A stretch of 42,606 nt of DNA from an uncultured Ruminiclostridium sp. (lineage in GTDB: Bacteria; Bacillota; Clostridia; Oscillospirales; Ruminococcaceae). The stretch spans positions 1 through 42,606 of the forward strand of contig CANQIB010000020.1 in assembly GCA_947623915.1 (NCBI GenBank), given 5' to 3'. A program made the position numbers and the translations under genes. The notes under the pieces were generated by a model, which made no database searches, had not been told where the DNA came from, and was given only the letters and a program-made list of their open reading frames with translations. Below are positions 16,893 to 42,606 of the stretch, piece by piece (position 1 is the stretch's first letter; the number at the start of each line of letters is the position of its first letter).

Positions 16893-16905
16893 GACAGGGC
16901 TTTGT

Positions 16906-17122
16906 CTGTAGAAAAAGGTCAATATAAAGCGGAAGGAAAAAGGTCAATATAAAGCGGAAGGAAAGAGGAGTTTGAGGGGAAAACCATCAGGGTTTTCACC
17001 CTCAAGTTTGATAAGAGCCGCGCAAAGCGCGGCAAAAATCGAGCAATATCGCTTATGCGGTATTGCCGATTTTTTCAGCTTGTCGGGAAATCCGACCGTA
17101 AGGAGGATTTTTCGACAAGCTG
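16906..17122 (+). repeat. Terminator-flanked intergenic element, family 2 (copy 1)
   Basis: Non-coding, ~217 bp, built of hairpins in a row: a 14-bp stem at 16972-17005 (one A bulge), GCCGCGC/GCGCGGC (17017-17033), an ATCG...CGAT stem with T-run (17034-17075) and CAGCTTGTCG/CGACAAGCTG (17076-17122). Near its start a 25-bp unit is present twice (ggtc at 16917 and 16942). The reverse-complement copy at 30060-30254 keeps the same order. An 11-bp direct repeat CAGGGCTTTGT flanks it (16895-16905 and 17150-17160), the right one being the end of the full terminator. Nothing else is seen in 16893-17198. Confidence 0.85.
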
Positions 17123-18771: not shown

Positions 18772-21204
18772 TCAAAGGTCGAAAAATCCGACATTGTCGC
18801 TGCTCATCTCGTCGTTATCGTCGTCGCCCGTGCCCTGCATCAGCTTAAAATCCCACGACGGGTCGTAAGTCGCGGTATTGCCGTTCATTTCGTCGTTGGT
18901 GGACATCATCGGCAAGGTAGGCTCAGGTTCGGGAGCGGGTCTTGACGCCGAGGGCGGCGGATCGAGCTCCACTCCGTTCAACTGCGCCTCAAGCTCTTTC
19001 CACGGGTCGTTCGCCGATTCTTCCTCGGCGTTGCCCATAGGCTCGCTCTCGTTGAGTTTTTCAATGTGTGTGAATATATCGTCGCTTGCCGCCTCCGGCT
19101 TATCATCTGCCGGCGGCTTCTCCGCGAGCAGCGACGCAAAGTCGTTATCCGACATTACGGGCTGCTCCGGCTCTTTGGCTCTTATATTGAAATCCGAAAA
19201 ATCGCTTGCGGTAGCGCCGTAATCCGCTTCGCTCGCCTTAGCGGGCGTTTGCGAAGGTTCATCGACCGTGCTCACTACGGGAGCGGGGTCGGCAAGCAGC
19301 GACGCAAAATCATCGGGTACCGTCGCGGTCTGATTTACGGGATTTTCCTCCTGCTTGGGAACAGGCGCCGCCAACAAGTCAGCAAAGCTGTCATCGACTG
19401 TGACCTCCTGCTTAGCGGCGGGTTCTGCCACAGGTTCTGTTGTAGGTGCTGCCAACAAGTCCGCAAAGCTATCATCAACTGCAACGTCCTGCTTAGCGGC
19501 AGGTTCTGCCACAGATTCTGCCGTGGGTGCTGCCAACAAGTCCGCAAAGCTATCATCAACGGCGGCCTCCGTCTTAGCGGCAGGTTCTGCTACAGATTCT
19601 GCCGTGGGTGCTGCCAACAAGTCCGCAAAGCTGTCATCAACGGCGGCCTCCGTCTTAGCGGCAGGTTCTTCTGCAGGTGCTGCCAACAAGTCCGCAAAGC
19701 TATCATCAACTGCAACGTCCTGCTTAGCGGCAGGTTCTGCCACAGATTCTGCCGTGGGTGCTGCCAACAAGTCCGCAAAGCTATCATCAACTGCAACGTC
19801 CTGCTTAGCGGCGGGTTCTGCTACAGATTCTGCCGTGGGTGCTGCCAACAAATCTTCAAAGCTGTCCGCAACCGCGTTCTCCGTCTTAGCGGCAGGTTCT
19901 TCTGCGGGTACTGCCGTGGATTCCGGCATCTTGACTTCTTCAAAAGGCGCGGGAGCCGCCACCGCTTTGGGAGCGTCGGCGGATATTTCCGCGGTAAGGT
20001 CTATATCGTTTTCAAAGGAAACGCCGGTCGGCTGTTCCGTCGCGTCAAGCTCCAGCTTAAAGGCATAAGGCTCTACCTCCATAGGCTGATAGCCCTCTAT
20101 CTGCGAGGAGTCGAACTCCGCCAGCTCCGCTATGGCGGCTCTTGCGGATGCTACCTCTTCCTGCTCCGCGAGCTTCTTTTCCTTTGCCTCGGTGACCGCC
20201 TGTTCAACGTTAGCGGCCTGCTCAGCCTGCTCCACCGATTCCTTGACCGCCTCGTTCAGCTTAATGGTAAGCTGCTCGGAGAGCGCGGCAAACACCGCGC
20301 TGACGTCTACCGTCGGCGCAACGTTCTCCGATTCCGCCGAAATTTCAGCGGCGCGTTTATCCAACTGCTCCGTCAGCGTATTTTTATAGCTGTCCGCGGC
20401 GCTGACCGCCTGTGCGGCATAAAGCTGCGCGGACTCTATTATCTTCGCGGCTTTCTCGCGAGCGTCCGCTATCACGGCGTCCGCGTCGGAATTTGTCTTG
20501 GCGGTTATCTCCTCAAGACGGCTCTCCCGCACCGAAACGGAGGTCGCCGCCGCGTCGGCTATCCTCTTTTCTACCGAAGCCTTGTACTCCTCGACCGACG
20601 CTTTGTATTTTTCCACGTCGGACTTGTACTCCTCAACGCCCTTTTTGTAATTTTCCTCATCGGCGATGTAACGCTCGGTCTGCTCGCGGTATCTTTCGGA
20701 CTCCTGTCTGTATTTTTCCGCAGCCGCCTTGTAAGCGTCGAACTCGTCGGTCAGACGGTCGCACTCTGCCTTATAGAGCCGGAGATCCTGCTCGCTCTTT
20801 TGCAGCTCCGTCTTGTATTTATCCGCCTCGCCGCTGTCCTGAGGAGCGCTGCGGAGAGTTTCGCACTCTTTTCTCAGCTCCGCGTTATCCTCCCGCACCG
20901 CCGCAAGATCCTTTTCCAGCTGAGCCGCTTTGCGCTCCGCCTCAAATACCTGCTTGCGGTTTTCCGCGATCTGGTTGGTAAGCTCCGCTTTCTTGCTCTC
21001 TATCTCGGCATATAACTCTTCGGGAGGCGCGGTTTCCTTCAGCTTTTGTATCTCCTGCTTTAGGCTCTCGTTTTCTTCCCTCAGAGCTTTGTTGTTCTTG
21101 TTATGGTTGACTATGTACGCCATAACCTCGTTTTTGTCAAAGCCGAACGGCACCGTTTTAAAATCGCCGTTTTCTGACGCTTGTTGTTTCTTAGAGTCAG
21201 CCAT
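18772..21204 (-). CDS. DivIVA-like coiled-coil protein with C-terminal FADLLA repeats
   Basis: 810 residues. The start FKTVPFGFDKNEVMAYI resembles the membrane-curvature segment of DivIVA/GpsB proteins. Residues ~35-330 are coiled coil; at ~160-215 a strict seven-residue period repeats as KYRQESE, RYREQTE, NYKKGVE, EYKSDVE, KYKASVE. A linker is followed by seven copies of a 27-residue unit (one is 23) with the core DDSFADLLAAP, and further degenerate copies (DDFASLLADP, NDFASLLAEK). No membrane helix. Such a layout fits a cell-pole or septum scaffold whose repeated short motif recruits a partner many times; this is inference. ATG 21204 has a GGGGGG site. Followed after 19 bp by the fumarase subunit. 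A weaker alternative is a general cytoskeletal or secretion scaffold. Confidence 0.85.
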   Translation of the reverse strand: MADSKKQQASENGDFKTVPFGFDKNEVMAYIVNHNKNNKALREENESLKQEIQKLKETAPPEELYAEIESKKAELTNQIAENRKQVFEAERKAAQLEKDLAAVREDNAELRKECETLRSAPQDSGEADKYKTELQKSEQDLRLYKAECDRLTDEFDAYKAAAEKYRQESERYREQTERYIADEENYKKGVEEYKSDVEKYKASVEEYKASVEKRIADAAATSVSVRESRLEEITAKTNSDADAVIADAREKAAKIIESAQLYAAQAVSAADSYKNTLTEQLDKRAAEISAESENVAPTVDVSAVFAALSEQLTIKLNEAVKESVEQAEQAANVEQAVTEAKEKKLAEQEEVASARAAIAELAEFDSSQIEGYQPMEVEPYAFKLELDATEQPTGVSFENDIDLTAEISADAPKAVAAPAPFEEVKMPESTAVPAEEPAAKTENAVADSFEDLLAAPTAESVAEPAAKQDVAVDDSFADLLAAPTAESVAEPAAKQDVAVDDSFADLLAAPAEEPAAKTEAAVDDSFADLLAAPTAESVAEPAAKTEAAVDDSFADLLAAPTAESVAEPAAKQDVAVDDSFADLLAAPTTEPVAEPAAKQEVTVDDSFADLLAAPVPKQEENPVNQTATVPDDFASLLADPAPVVSTVDEPSQTPAKASEADYGATASDFSDFNIRAKEPEQPVMSDNDFASLLAEKPPADDKPEAASDDIFTHIEKLNESEPMGNAEEESANDPWKELEAQLNGVELDPPPSASRPAPEPEPTLPMMSTNDEMNGNTATYDPSWDFKLMQGTGDDDNDEMSSDNVGFFDL
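19371..19925 (-). repeat. 81-bp in-frame tandem repeats (DSFADLLAAP units)
   Basis: CCAACAAGTC (or its variant) recurs at 19371, 19452, 19533, 19614, 19683, 19764 and 19845; spacing is 81 bp except one of 69 bp. Two sub-types alternate (AAKQDVAVDD and AAKTEAAVDD), showing block duplication. Confidence 0.92.
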
Positions 21205-21753: not shown

Positions 21754-21783
21754 CCCCTTTTCAAACACTATGTTGAAAAGGGG
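21754..21783 (+). terminator. Hairpin that hides the ribosome site of the deacetylase gene
   Basis: Perfect 11-bp stem CCCCTTTTCAA/TTGAAAAGGGG (21754-21764 with 21773-21783), 8-nt loop. Its right arm contains the AAAGGGG that would serve the TTG start at 21791. No long T-run follows, so it can act as a weak terminator and as a translation lock. Confidence 0.65.
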
Positions 21784-21790
21784 TGATCTT

Positions 21791-22537
21791 TTGTTTAAAA
21801 ATACAAAGCTGCTCGCGGCGCTGCTTGTGCCGTTATTTGCCGTTTCGGCGGGAGCGTTGTCCGACCAAAAAATCGGTTACGGTCAGGGCGTTATCACCGA
21901 CGGGGCGAACCGTCCTATCGGAGCGGTGCAGGCGCAGGAGCAGTACGGAAAATACGGGGCGGAGTTTATCGGCAGCGCCGATGAAAAGCGCATATACCTC
22001 ACCTTTGACGAGGGTTACGAAAACGGTTGCACGGCGGATATACTGAATATACTGAAAGAAAAAGGCGTGTCCGCGACTTTCTATATAACCTACGATTACG
22101 CGCTGAGAAATCCCGAATTGGTGAAAAGAATGGCGCAGGAGGGACACGGCATAGGAAATCACACCTATTCCCACCCCAGCCTGCCGAGCTGCTCCGACAA
22201 TGAATTTTACGGAGAGGTAGTAAGGCTCGAACAATATGTTCGGGATAATTTCGGGGTGCTGACCCGCACTCTGCGGCCGCCGATGGGCGAATTTTCGGAA
22301 CGCACGCTTTACCTTGCCGACAAGCTGGGCTATAAAACGGTGTTCTGGTCTTTTGCCTACGCCGACTGGCAGACCGACGCGCAGCCCTCGCCGTCAGAGG
22401 CTTACAAACGCATAACCGAAGCCACCCACAACGGCGAGATATGCCTGCTGCACGCCGTCAGCCGCACAAATACCGTAATACTTGCCGACGTGATAGACTA
22501 CTGGCGCGCCGCAGGGTACGAAATTTGCAGTATATAA
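21791..22537 (+). CDS. NodB-domain polysaccharide deacetylase (PdaA-like), secreted
   Basis: 248 residues. After a short signal peptide (FKNTKLLAALLVPLFAVSAGA) comes a NodB domain: YLTFDEGYENG (motif 1, where the second Asp of the usual TFDDG is Glu as in PdaA-type enzymes), HTYSHPSL (the metal His pair), RPPMGEFS, WSFAYADW and the last motif ICLLHAVS. PdaA-type enzymes remove acetyl groups from muramic acid in spore cortex peptidoglycan; a spore or wall role is likely but not certain. I prefer the TTG at 21791: AAAGGGGTGA is 5-7 nt ahead, while the in-frame ATG at 21770 has no site and falls in the loop of the hairpin. Follows ireB by 71 bp. Confidence 0.92.
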   Translation: MFKNTKLLAALLVPLFAVSAGALSDQKIGYGQGVITDGANRPIGAVQAQEQYGKYGAEFIGSADEKRIYLTFDEGYENGCTADILNILKEKGVSATFYITYDYALRNPELVKRMAQEGHGIGNHTYSHPSLPSCSDNEFYGEVVRLEQYVRDNFGVLTRTLRPPMGEFSERTLYLADKLGYKTVFWSFAYADWQTDAQPSPSEAYKRITEATHNGEICLLHAVSRTNTVILADVIDYWRAAGYEICSI

Positions 22538-22541
22538 CAAC

Positions 22542-22569
22542 ACTCCGACGGACATTCGTCCGTCGGTGT
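22542..22569. terminator. Terminator hairpin, first copy
   Basis: 12-bp stem with one T-G pair (22542-22553 with 22558-22569), loop ATTC, directly after the deacetylase stop. A 28-bp copy with one difference is at 23083-23110. Confidence 0.75.
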
Positions 22570-23082
22570 AGACTGTCGATAAACCCACAGCACCATTACG
22601 AACAGCCTGAAAGGCTGTTCGTGTCGGAGTTTTGAATTTGTATAATTCAAAACTCCTGCCCCGCGGCTTAAACTTAACGACAGCACAAATTTTCTTAATG
22701 CGTCAAGAGCCGCTCACAGACGTTGCGGAGTCGGACACAAGCCGCCTCACGCCGATTCTTTTGGGCTATTTTTGTCCCTTGTTCCTCGGCAGGCGCAAGC
22801 CTGCCTGCGTCGCAAGAGCCAAAACTATCTCCAAAATCTCTCGGCGTGAGGTTCGTTTTTACAGAGCAGATTTTCGTCAAGACAAGGCGACCGAACGACG
22901 GCATACTTGCGTATGCCTAGCGAGGTCAACGCAGTATTGGCGGAAATATGCCTGTAAAAACCGACTTGTGTCCGACTCCGCAACGTCTGGTACCCTTGTA
23001 CGCCTATCGCGGCTCTTTCCTTGTCTGCGCGTGTTTCTCGAAGTCTGCCAGCTTGCCGAAAAATAACTTTTTCGACAAGCTG
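22570..23082 (+). repeat. Terminator-flanked intergenic element, family 1 (complete copy)
   Basis: 513 non-coding bp. Perfect stems: 9 bp (22599-22607/22613-22621), 13 bp (22626-22638/22644-22656), a long-range 25-bp pair (22717-22741/22965-22989) enclosing an 11-bp pair (22745-22755/22841-22851), a GGCAGGC-GCAA-GCCTGCC stem (22788-22805) and GGCATAC-TTGC-GTATGCC (22900-22917). It ends in CAGCTTGCCG...CGACAAGCTG like the other elements. The first 209 bp recur at 42398-42606 with four differences. Short open frames inside have no ribosome sites and I call none. Confidence 0.88.
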
Positions 23083-23110
23083 ACACCGACGGACATTCGT
23101 CCGTCGGTGT
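23083..23110. terminator. Terminator hairpin, second copy
   Basis: Perfect 12-bp stem (23083-23094 with 23099-23110), loop ATTC, followed by GTTGTATTTT. It lies 8 bp from the stop of the convergent chemoreceptor gene. Confidence 0.8.
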
Positions 23111-23118
23111 GTTGTATT

Positions 23119-24468
23119 TTACTGCTCCTCGGAGGTCTCCTCCGGCTTGCCTACATAATGCACGCCCTCGCTGTCGATATGCACCTGACCGCTGCGGCGC
23201 AGGTAAAACCGCTTTACCATGCGTTTGAGCTCGCGCGCCTGTTCGGAGGTCAGCGCGCTCGCCGAGGCGCTTTCTTCCGCGGTAGCCGCGTTGTTCTGCA
23301 CAACGGCGGCTATCTGGTCGATAGTTGCCAGCACGGCCTCTATCGTGGAGCTTTGCTCGGCTGAGGATGCGGAAATGCCCATCAACAGTTCGTTCGCGTT
23401 GTCGAATTTTTCCATTATGTTCTGTATCGTCGCCGCCGTGGAATCGGCAAGCGCCGTTCCGTTTGCGACGGCGGCTATTGAGCTGTTGATAAGCTCGTTG
23501 GTGCTGCGCGCCGCCTCCGCGGATTTGCTTGCAAGGTTTCTGACCTCGTCCGCAACCACGGCAAAGCCTTTTCCGGCTTCTCCCGCTCTTGCCGCCTCGA
23601 CTGCGGCGTTGAGCGCGAGTATGTTGGTCTGGAACGCTATATTGTCTATGGTGTTGATTATCTTTTCTATCTCGTTGGATTTTTCCTCTATAAGCTGCAT
23701 AGCGTCGAGCAGGTTTTTCATTTCCTCGTTGCCGCGTCTTAACTCCTCGGTAGCGCTGTCGGATATCGCGCTGGCGCTTTTGGCGTTATCGGCGTTGCGG
23801 CGTACCCTGCGGGAGATATCGTGTATCGAGTCGGAAAGCTCTCTTATCGCCTGTTCCTGGTCGGAAGTGCCTTGTGCCAGCGCCTGTGCGCCCGACGACA
23901 CCTGCTCCGACGCGTCGGACACCATCGTGCCTACCTTTTGTATCGTGCCGAAAAATTCATTCAAATCGTTCAGTATCGCCTCGAACGCCTCTTTTATGGG
24001 GATAAACTCTCCCTTGTACTCGTAATCGAGGTAAAAGCTGACGTTTCCGTATGACATCTGAGTCAGCAGATAGCTAAGCTCGTCGGTCATCTTGCGGATA
24101 TATTCTTTCGTCTTTATAAGCGCGTCGTTAAGCTCGCCTATATCGTCGCTGCCGGTGTTCAGCTCCACCTTTTCCGAAAGATTGCCCTCCGCAAAATTAT
24201 ACAGCTCTCTTGTTATAGTATGTATGGGCGAGGCTATAGCCTTGCGGGTAAATATTATAAGGAAAATCGCGGCTGCCGCTCCTATTAGCGAAAGCGCTCC
24301 GGCAGCTATCGGCAGCGCAAGGCTGCGACCTCCCTGCACTGCGTTGTATATCCCTATCGCGCAAAGTATCGCGCAGGCAAGCGAGGTGACTATGCAGGTA
24401 ATGCACATAAACGCGTTCATGAATGAACGGCTGGTCAGCATATTCTTTATCGTATCCGCTATCTTCAT
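23119..24468 (-). CDS. Methyl-accepting chemotaxis protein with minimal outer part
   Basis: 449 residues from ATG 24468 (GGGGG upstream). Two membrane helices (about residues 17-40 and 52-75) are joined by only ~12 residues, so there is no folded extracellular sensor. A HAMP domain follows ([19 protein letters not shown]), then a linker with [16 protein letters not shown] and the signalling domain with its tip [20 protein letters not shown] and [15 protein letters not shown]. There is no C-terminal CheR-binding pentapeptide; the end is Glu-rich. The tip binds CheA/CheW. Likely cue: membrane state, proton motive force or an intracellular signal rather than an outside ligand. Single gene with its own promoter; no other chemotaxis genes nearby. 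Confidence 0.94.
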
Positions 24469-24562
24469 ATGTATGCCCCCATCGTGAGAAAGTGGCGCGG
24501 CGGTGCTTTGCCCGTAAGCTGTGCGGCCGCCGACACGGCAGAGTAAAGTCCTGTCTGCTATA

Positions 24563-24591
24563 ATTTTACCATAATCAAACGATAAAGTCAA
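24563..24591 (-). promoter_or_regulatory. Promoter of the chemoreceptor gene
   Basis: Minus-strand TTGACT (24591-24586), 17-bp spacer, TAAAAT (24568-24563), ~95 bp before the start codon. It lies directly behind the 3' end of the permease operon. Confidence 0.75.
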
Positions 24592-24617: not shown

Positions 24618-26633
24618 TCAGTCGCCGATACATTCCAGCGCGGCAGCTTGATACTCTTCCGGTATATACGCCATACAGATATTGTTTATATATATCCTCG
24701 TGACTTTGTCCTTGTCATGCTCCATCTCCTCGTAAGAGGGATATACCTTGATATAAGAACTCAGCTTTTCGATAAGCTCCGTTTCGTCGGGATAAACGGT
24801 ATCATCATTATAATATACGTCCGTACTGTCCTCGACGGCGGTACTGATAAATCTTATATCCAAGGCGCTTTGATACATCTTTCCCCTATTTGCAAAGTCC
24901 TTTATCATATCAAGCGTTTTTGTGTAGCTTTCCCTTATCACAACGTTAAGCGTCGAACCGGTATCGTAGCCCTCGGTAATATCCCTTTGCAGCGGCAGGA
25001 GCAGTTTATCGGTATAGTAAAAATCCCTCGGCGCGTTGAGCGTAAGTCTGCCGACTATCGGCGTATCGTCGTCAAAATGCCCGTTCGCGTCCTCCCGCAG
25101 CGCCCGTATCAGCTTTATGCTGTCGCCGCCTTCCATGACCGATTGATTTATAATGCCCAGCGTCGGGACGGTCACTCCGCCTATTATGCCGGAAGATTTT
25201 TCCGTGCAGTGCTGCTCCGCCTTATCCAAAAGCGTGTTGAGCACCATTTTTGAGCGCAGCAGCTTTGTTACGTCTATCGCGCTTTTCTTTGCCTGCGCGT
25301 TTCTCCCGTCGACGTAACGGAACACCAGCCCGACGGAGGCGAGCGGCTCCTGCCCGTCGCCGCGATAGGTCAGCATTTTCTCGCCGTAGATGGCGTCCAG
25401 CTGTTCCTTGGTTTCAAATCTCGTGTAAAGGCTGCCCTCGTCGATATAAAACTGCACTTCTATGCCGGATACCGACTGCCTGTCGGGTAGCTCCACCGTC
25501 GCGGGATTAAGCCCCATTTTCCCCGTGTTTATCAAAAGCGCATATATCAAAAACGCTCCGAGCGCCGTGGCGGCGTATTTCACCGCGCTTCTCCACAGCT
25601 TTTTAAAACTGCGGTAGTGGAACATCTCCAAAAACAGCAGCGGTATCGCTGCATACAACAGCGACATCAACGGTGAAATGTAATTCCCCGTTTGAACGGT
25701 GAAGCAAAAGAGGAACACCGCCGACAGCAGCATGACCGTTATCACATGATACACCGAATTGTAAGCGAATTGCTCTCCCACCTTTTCGGCGCTGCGGCGG
25801 GTGGCAAGGAAATAGCTCGCCGCAGTCGCGGCAGCCAGCACCAGCGCAACTATAACGGCGCTGAACGGCTGAGTAAGAGTCGGAGTCAGCGAAGCGAAGT
25901 CCGCGATAACCGTGCCTATCGGCGGTATGAACCGCAGCACGCTTATGATATAATCGTTGCCGTTTGAACCGTCGGTCCCGAAAAGCACGGCTTGAGTCAG
26001 CACCGCCGCCATTATCGGCAGCAGCACTATCGCCAGCAGAGAGAACAGCACCGAGCCGGAAAATCCGCCGCAGCAAACCGTTATCAGCGTCGATAAGATA
26101 TACACCCCCGCGTAAAACACCATCGCGGCTATTATCATTTGCAGCAGTAAAGCTGCCGCCTTGTTCGGGTCGGTCGAAGACGAAGTATAGAACATACTGT
26201 CCTTTGCGAATACGCTGACAAAAGGCATAGAGCCCAACGCGCAGATAACAAACGGCAGCAGCCCAGATACAAGTCCCGCGAAAAAGTCCGCCCAGAACCG
26301 CTGGCAGGCGGTAAGCGGCAAAGCGCCGTACATATCCGCCATGTCCTTGCGGTTGAAGTAGCTGAAGCTCATCGGCGCGAGCAGCAGCATTATAAAAAAC
26401 AGTATACCAAACGATACCGCCGAGATTATCATGCCGAATGCGGCGGTCTGGGAGGCGTTCACATACGCCTGACTGAACGGCTCGTCGTTTAACGTTACCA
26501 GCGGCGCTAACGTCCCCATCAACAGCGGAACGGAAAGCAGACTGAATATTATGCTTAATATAAAAGGAGTGCGCAGCAGCTTCAGCCTGTAGAAAAAGTA
26601 AGCAAAAGTGTAATTTTGTTTTGCAGCAGTCAT
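24618..26633 (-). CDS. ABC transporter permease (ABC-2-like), second of a pair
   Basis: 671 residues. The first ~370 hold eight or so membrane helices, with a cytoplasmic loop YFNRKDMADMYGALPLTACQ that is shared with its neighbour (YYNKTDKTDMYGALPLTRMQ) and probably meets the ATPase. A second common string is FAYNSVYHVITVMLL. The last ~280 residues are soluble and mixed alpha/beta, probably outside. ATG 26633 follows GGAGGG. It is the last gene of the gntR-ATPase-permease-permease operon, 18 bp after its paralogue. With one ATPase gene and two unlike permeases, the complex is probably a heterodimer. Substrate unknown; YtrA-linked ABC systems often respond to cell-wall-active peptides. Confidence 0.88.
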   Translation of the reverse strand: MTAAKQNYTFAYFFYRLKLLRTPFILSIIFSLLSVPLLMGTLAPLVTLNDEPFSQAYVNASQTAAFGMIISAVSFGILFFIMLLLAPMSFSYFNRKDMADMYGALPLTACQRFWADFFAGLVSGLLPFVICALGSMPFVSVFAKDSMFYTSSSTDPNKAAALLLQMIIAAMVFYAGVYILSTLITVCCGGFSGSVLFSLLAIVLLPIMAAVLTQAVLFGTDGSNGNDYIISVLRFIPPIGTVIADFASLTPTLTQPFSAVIVALVLAAATAASYFLATRRSAEKVGEQFAYNSVYHVITVMLLSAVFLFCFTVQTGNYISPLMSLLYAAIPLLFLEMFHYRSFKKLWRSAVKYAATALGAFLIYALLINTGKMGLNPATVELPDRQSVSGIEVQFYIDEGSLYTRFETKEQLDAIYGEKMLTYRGDGQEPLASVGLVFRYVDGRNAQAKKSAIDVTKLLRSKMVLNTLLDKAEQHCTEKSSGIIGGVTVPTLGIINQSVMEGGDSIKLIRALREDANGHFDDDTPIVGRLTLNAPRDFYYTDKLLLPLQRDITEGYDTGSTLNVVIRESYTKTLDMIKDFANRGKMYQSALDIRFISTAVEDSTDVYYNDDTVYPDETELIEKLSSYIKVYPSYEEMEHDKDKVTRIYINNICMAYIPEEYQAAALECIGD

Positions 26634-42397: not shown

Positions 42398-42606
42398 AGA
42401 CTGTCGATAAACCCACAGCACCATTACGAACAGCCTGAAAGGCTGTTCGTGTCGGAGTTTTGAATTTATATAATTCAAAACTCCTGCCCTGCGGCTTAAA
42501 CTTAACGACAGCACAAATTTTCTTAATATGTCAAGAGCCGCTCACAGACGTTGCGGAGTCGGACACAAGCCGCCTCACGCCGATTCTTTTGGGCTATTTT
42601 TGTCCC
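42398..42606 (+). repeat. Terminator-flanked intergenic element, family 1 (cut by the right edge)
   Basis: 209 bp, identical to 22570-22778 except at four positions. The 9-bp and 13-bp stems are intact; one change falls in the loop of the 13-bp stem. It begins one base after the terminator, as the other copy does, and continues beyond the window. Confidence 0.93.

Follow-up and report, generated by a model that had tools for sequence, protein, structure and literature searches.

The interval between positions 22570 and 23082 of the window (the whole stretch of DNA that was analysed, 42,606 nucleotides, which is contig C20 of a 2.25-Mb, 25-contig genome assembly) is a gene-less, non-autonomous element of IS1182 type that lies between two copies of a terminator hairpin. 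Very probably it is a miniature element that an IS1182-family DDE transposase of the same genome mobilises in trans, the target being a terminator hairpin that is chosen by its fold and duplicated whole.

The features of the window are collected in Table 1. The left hairpin (ACTCCGACGGACATTCGTCCGTCGGTGT) and the right hairpin (ACACCGACGGACATTCGTCCGTCGGTGT) are identical at 27 of 28 positions, and the 18-nt hairpin core, with up to three mismatches allowed, has only these two sites in the whole window against a shuffle mean of 0.01; the observation in the initial annotation of a 28-bp hairpin on either side, differing by one mismatch, is therefore beyond chance. The same annotation was also right that a perfect 25-bp inverted repeat (22717-22741/22965-22989, which extends to 28 bp at 96%) and no credible gene lie between the hairpins: the longest listed orf, of 144 amino acids (22632-23066), crosses the inverted repeats. 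It did not contain that the large inverted repeat delimits a separate repeat family, nor that the rightmost 34 bp are both a palindrome and an end of the element; an end resembling this palindromic one is also found on one copy of a second family (L038).

Table 1. Coordinates of the element, its flanking hairpins, neighbouring genes and related repeats in the window.
Feature	Position	Strand	Remarks
Copy of the second short element (Family 1)	16903..17121		only the right hairpin is complete; a few bases remain of the left one
Upstream gene, called a deacetylase in the initial annotation only	21770..22537	+	4 nt separate its stop codon from the left hairpin
Left copy of the duplicated terminator hairpin (target duplication)	22542..22569		by sequence comparison
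Non-autonomous IS1182-type element, 513 bp	22570..23082		by repeat matches and ends
One terminal end of the element, AGACTGTCGATAAA	22570..22583	+
Nested second repeat family, palindromic	22717..22989		elsewhere 269-279 bp, with ends TAGGCATACG...CGTATGCCTA
Other terminal end of the element, a 34-bp imperfect palindrome CAGCTTG...CAAGCTG	23049..23082
Right copy of the duplicated terminator hairpin	23083..23110		keeps the plus-strand T-rich tail GTTGTATTTT
Convergent gene, methyl-accepting chemotaxis protein-like (by reading the translation)	23119..24591	-	ends 8 nt after the right hairpin
Further copy of the window element's family, cut by the contig end	42398..42606	+	beside hairpin GCTCCCCGAACATACTGTTCGGGGAGC

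Elsewhere in the window, an 810-aa orf on the minus strand (18772-21204) contains many near-repeats, for example AAPTAESVAEPAAKQ and DDSFADLL, and the sole Rfam match at curated thresholds is a SAM riboswitch (RF00162, 36958-37098, 46.6 bits).

Matches of the window interval to other places in the genome extend over 22570-23082 and stop at the hairpins. Contigs C8, C6 and C17 carry other long copies, and short versions, about 250 bp in length, have their outer parts in common with the window element; the sequence of the flanking hairpin varies by place, yet it stands on both sides. The second short family, Family 1, is more numerous and has similar ends and the same habit of targeting terminators. 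A scan for element ends gave 90 matches in the genome, from which 45 candidate end-pairs were assembled in the retrieved stretches. A flank hairpin is common to both sides in 32 of the 45 pairs and in 10 of 1980 mispaired flanks, with a gapped score of at least 13 as the cut-off, which was set after the control had been seen (99% point of the control, 11.5). In 44 pairs one or both ends have a hairpin within 6 nt, and in 33 both ends do. The repeat is absent from 13 pairs, one of which, at window position 26584, is inside coding sequence and is not a real element. The window element's own family is represented by nine copies with both ends in one contig, eight of them (all but L033) between locus-specific duplicated hairpins, which supports the mobile non-coding element, entering at a terminator hairpin and duplicating it, that the initial annotation had put forward. 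In five of the 32 duplicated pairs (L004, L046, L064, L268, L271), an inverted alignment of the two hairpins scores higher, the loop of one copy being flipped; simple repair does not give such pairs, and they count against the explanation preferred here. These five loci look as if the loop of one hairpin had flipped after insertion. Where the last copy in Table 1 is cut off, contig C23 offers a continuation, as it ends in the other element end and a hairpin matching the one beside 42398-42606; contigs C20 and C23 are probably neighbours.

A longer and apparently autonomous IS is present at the contig ends of this genome. Six of the contig ends break off in a common stretch of 77 bases that comprises an element end and a hairpin as well as a promoter-like sequence and a possible start codon, and four further contig ends stop in a second common end, the other end of the longer IS. 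All ten abut hairpins by eye, and each of the four pairs with exactly one of the six through an exact repeat of 24, 25, 29 or 35 bp, so that two of the six, the ends of C12 and C13, stay unpaired in this assembly. A common terminator offers a means of putting in order contigs that are broken at IS copies. The body of the transposase is absent from the assembly, searches of this genome for two IS1182 Pfam domains having given no match, and an exact-word scan of the genome_contigs collection for the IS end found nothing. Both ends of the window element and one end of the IS fit AGNYTGTCGANAAA, from which the other IS end differs by one base. Because only the ends of the IS are assembled here, its link to the short elements rests on end similarity and the common target mode, from which we infer that this IS1182-type IS moves the short elements. 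The window element has the features of a MITE: it is gene-less, it is multicopy and its ends are in common with those of an autonomous IS.

An intact form was found in a genome of the same family, where the 78-base IS end is matched at 78% identity and runs into an intact gene of 470 codons, between two hairpin copies. Terminal inverted repeats of the type CAGNNTGTCGA flank the 470-aa orf in L088 and L116, the arrangement of a single-gene IS. The transposases of the two relatives tested score 396 and 379 bits against the IS1182 model NF033551, for which the cut-off is 270; the intact relatives encode IS1182-family transposases. A structural model of the transposase, predicted from 20 sequences, was of low quality (mean pLDDT 45) and is left out of account.

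The prevalence of hairpin duplication was assessed by scanning genome contigs with an alignment of 20 relatives as the query and taking the best 80 of 374 loci, of which 67 are flanked by 100 nt or more on either side. Among these 67, a direct repeat of 17-39 bp is present at the element ends (score at least 15) in 45, and its two copies are identical in 42 of the 45. Mispaired flanks reach this score in 12 of 4422 combinations, three of the 12 representing the same site or the same genome; L216 and L218, of one genome, have a 29-bp repeat in common when cross-paired. Most repeats abut the element ends, and some are a few bases off (six in L187). The repeat is lacking in 22 of the 67, of which 15 had both ends recognisable and ten of these bear a different complete hairpin at each end; two different complete hairpins at one copy are provisionally read as the outcome of recombination between copies or of misassembly. 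On the chromosome of Chakrabartyella piscis there are 11 copies, nine of which are also counted among the 45. A duplicated hairpin of about 20-35 bp brackets every one of the 11, and in two of them the hairpin copies differ slightly; L239 and L240 have identical flanks, leaving 10 distinct sites. The IS is 1484 bp long in ten of these copies and 1483 bp in one. Many autonomous relatives, then, are bracketed in the same way as the family of the window element. A phylum sample of 30 loci matching the IS1182 model, which gives no family-wide rate, contains nine with a hairpin repeat, one of them at 24% identity, and ten full-length transposase matches without a repeat, five at 47-51% identity and five at 23-25%; the other 11 matched the protein P0001 over only 137-331 residues, which misplaces their flanks, and were not judged.

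Element-free sites with a single hairpin, by which the initial annotation proposed to check its reading, were also found. In the genome G614, AACTCCTGCGTATGCAGGAGTT stands on both sides of a 1.7-kb IS whose transposase is 35% identical to P0001 and above the IS1182 cut-off, and in G664, of the same genus and with flanks that are 87% identical, there is one such hairpin and the flanks are contiguous. The comparison in this genus covered three genomes; empty sites were sought in the genera of G008 (four genomes) and G304 (two genomes) and none was found. A paralogous empty site exists in the genome of the window: an IS has entered the terminator inside one Family 1 element, where this terminator now stands twice, and the same internal hairpin is single in three other Family 1 copies. 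As for the window site, two genomes (G263 and G259) have the same two convergent genes with one hairpin and no element, and in a third (G230) one hairpin follows the first gene and at least one other lies beyond it, which counts against the explanation preferred here; these are syntenic and not exact empty sites, because their hairpin sequences differ from those of the window.

The inner palindrome of the window element has a distribution of its own. The segment 22727-22979 matches about 20 other places that lack the outer part. Of 21 inner-element copies, 18 were measurable, at 269-279 bp, with TA at both ends in 12 and a mean column identity of 93% when the 18 are aligned. The copy nested in the window element has the outer 10 bp changed on both arms, which are still paired. 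Five of the nine copies of 279 bp sit in continuous gene-like flanks by eye; the genome is gene-dense, and random insertion would give no fewer than five of nine. The inner element is taken to be an ordinary TA-targeting element. In-frame insertion or splicing in the manner of RPE was considered for it and rejected, as a copy of 279 bp minus one TA adds 277 nt and shifts the frame. In L018, L019, L020, L021 and L024, near 1491-1769, a 279-bp TA-flanked palindrome interrupts apparent coding genes as judged from translations, including a receiver-domain gene and a DAHP-synthase-like gene. A T-box leader is near the inner-element copy in L024, and many inner-element ends (L018-L028) read GGGTTCGACTCC, like a tRNA T-arm.

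Two explanations would dispense with insertion at a terminator. The initial annotation had offered as its alternative a large structured RNA, expressed by read-through; the hairpin copies would be part of it. Both strands of 22570-23082 do fold far better than shuffled sequences (z of -14.0 and -15.0), a strength that is due to the nested palindromes, and, of 85 inner pairs, 13 show one or more double changes; nevertheless, in RNA consensus folding of the inner part, covariation in the stems is negligible, contributing -0.81 of -104 kcal/mol, and most of the double changes come from the sequence of the window alone. Moreover, the element and the relatives searched match no Rfam family, the bracketing hairpins vary by site and the inner part stands alone elsewhere, also within gene-like sequence, all of which leaves the RNA alternative without support and highly improbable. 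The other explanation attributes the paired hairpins to tandem duplication at the site or to homologous recombination between repeats, with no transposition. Some copies do have two different hairpins, and therefore exchange between copies probably happens, but at many unrelated sites the repeats that adjoin the element ends are specific to the locus, and the empty site in G664, with its one hairpin and contiguous flanks, speaks against this explanation for an autonomous copy. An origin of the paired hairpins by these routes is scarcely credible.

If the hairpins are duplicated by transposition, what remains to be explained is how the transposase finds and cuts its target. Over 44 distinct repeats from the best 80 of 374 loci, the length ranges from 17 to 39 bp, and in 39 of the 44 the centre coincides with the dyad of the hairpin to within 1 nt, where random sliding gives 3%. 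The hairpin score reaches the 95% point of the same-loci control in only 35 of the 44 targets, and repeat length correlates moderately (r = 0.42) with the hairpin measured in the joined site; A/T pairs often lengthen the stem beyond the repeat. In the proposed mechanism, an IS1182-family DDE transposase encoded by an autonomous IS would move the gene-less element of the same genome in trans and would pick intrinsic terminators by their palindromic fold, not by their sequence. The two element ends would be joined to the two target strands symmetrically about the hairpin dyad, on each strand close to the 5′ foot of the hairpin, and repair would then copy the whole hairpin to both sides. The branch point of an extruded cruciform can migrate and could thereby allow symmetric cuts at variable distances; variable length with a fixed dyad centre fits cutting at the feet of such a cruciform, which we infer to be the target. 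A broader proposal, about as likely as not to be true, is that the transposases of a large IS1182-family branch recognise a terminator extruded as a cruciform by its four-way junction and join DNA at the 5′ feet of this junction. The cruciform may not be needed if a symmetric dimer binds the palindrome as duplex with flexible spacing, or if a paused RNA polymerase guides the transposase, and the cuts are made at the A/T-rich edges. The edges of the repeats do fall at the A-tract and T-tract of terminators, with A as the first base in 28 and T as the last base in 34 of the 44 repeats, and the T-runs that follow the target hairpins (mean 4.6 T of 8) favour duplex or polymerase-guided targeting as well. 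Against it, the length varies from site to site while the centre stays on the dyad, with no fixed stagger, and this reading is on balance doubtful.

Insertion of the kind preferred here, at a terminator hairpin that is then duplicated, leaves both convergent genes of the window with a hairpin a few bases past the stop codon. The T-rich tails are on the outer sides, the plus-strand tail after the right copy and the minus-strand tail with the left copy; therefore, the near copy for each gene has lost its own T-rich tail and may terminate poorly. Hairpins are also present just inside the ends of relatives, where 31 of 37 reach the 95% control level on each side (37 of 44 relatives from the best 80 of 374 loci were long enough for this test), and, judging by sequence, those of the autonomous copies may restore termination. 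With a hairpin kept by both convergent genes and with the autonomous copies carrying their own hairpins near their ends, insertion is presumably neutral for the host. This suggests why such elements can accumulate almost harmlessly at gene ends, and how terminators come to be multiplied and shuffled by them. If the cruciform proposal is true, this would be a DDE transposition without a fixed stagger, in which the target duplication is set by DNA structure and each neighbouring gene is left with a terminator hairpin. With this system it can be tested if a DDE transposase is able to read the shape of DNA instead of its sequence.

RUP, BOX, SPRITE and other bacterial MITEs are short, palindromic and over-represented between convergent genes, and an IS630 element is believed to mobilise RUP (PMC3049150, PMC10969869). 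The window element is likewise short and palindromic, but duplication of a terminator hairpin is undescribed for those MITEs in the available portions of the two papers. Within the IS1182 family, ISPse1, ISCaa15 and ISMac2 MITEs are listed with 4-bp or no direct repeats in the portions available of PMC3281130, PMC3196728 and PMC3852290, unlike the long hairpin repeats found here; ISMac2 resembles the present system in its family assignment and in having gene-less derivatives, of 160 and 169 bp. ISEfa7 of E. faecium and an IS1182-family copy in S. simulans have similar ends, CAGACTGT(A/C)GACAAA. Both ends of the S. simulans copy abut complete but different hairpins, and no repeat is common to the flanks of the plasmid relatives (two copies of ISEfa7, the one in S. 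simulans and a more distant one in S. meliloti). No description of the duplication of a whole terminator was found in the literature searched, which excluded subscription papers and ISfinder. The IS1182 family has a wide range of repeat lengths in ISfinder, and the curated records there may include examples.

Some IS1182 members target palindromes, according to a 2015 review by Siguier and colleagues as cited in PMC4923244 and PMC5678879. The elements described here resemble the staphylococcal IS1272 and TnSha1, which also belong to the IS1182 family and, in the available portions of the same two papers, target hairpins, several of them terminators, with no primary sequence consensus. For IS1272 and TnSha1, the stem-loop is reported to be deleted or replaced with no target duplication (partial loss of the hairpin in PMC4923244, replacement for IS1272 in PMC5678879), whereas here it is not replaced and the whole hairpin is duplicated. 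In the portion available of PMC5678879, duplication of the whole stem-loop is drawn only as hypothetical pathway b of Fig. 13; natural genomes show what had been only a drawn possibility in that published model.
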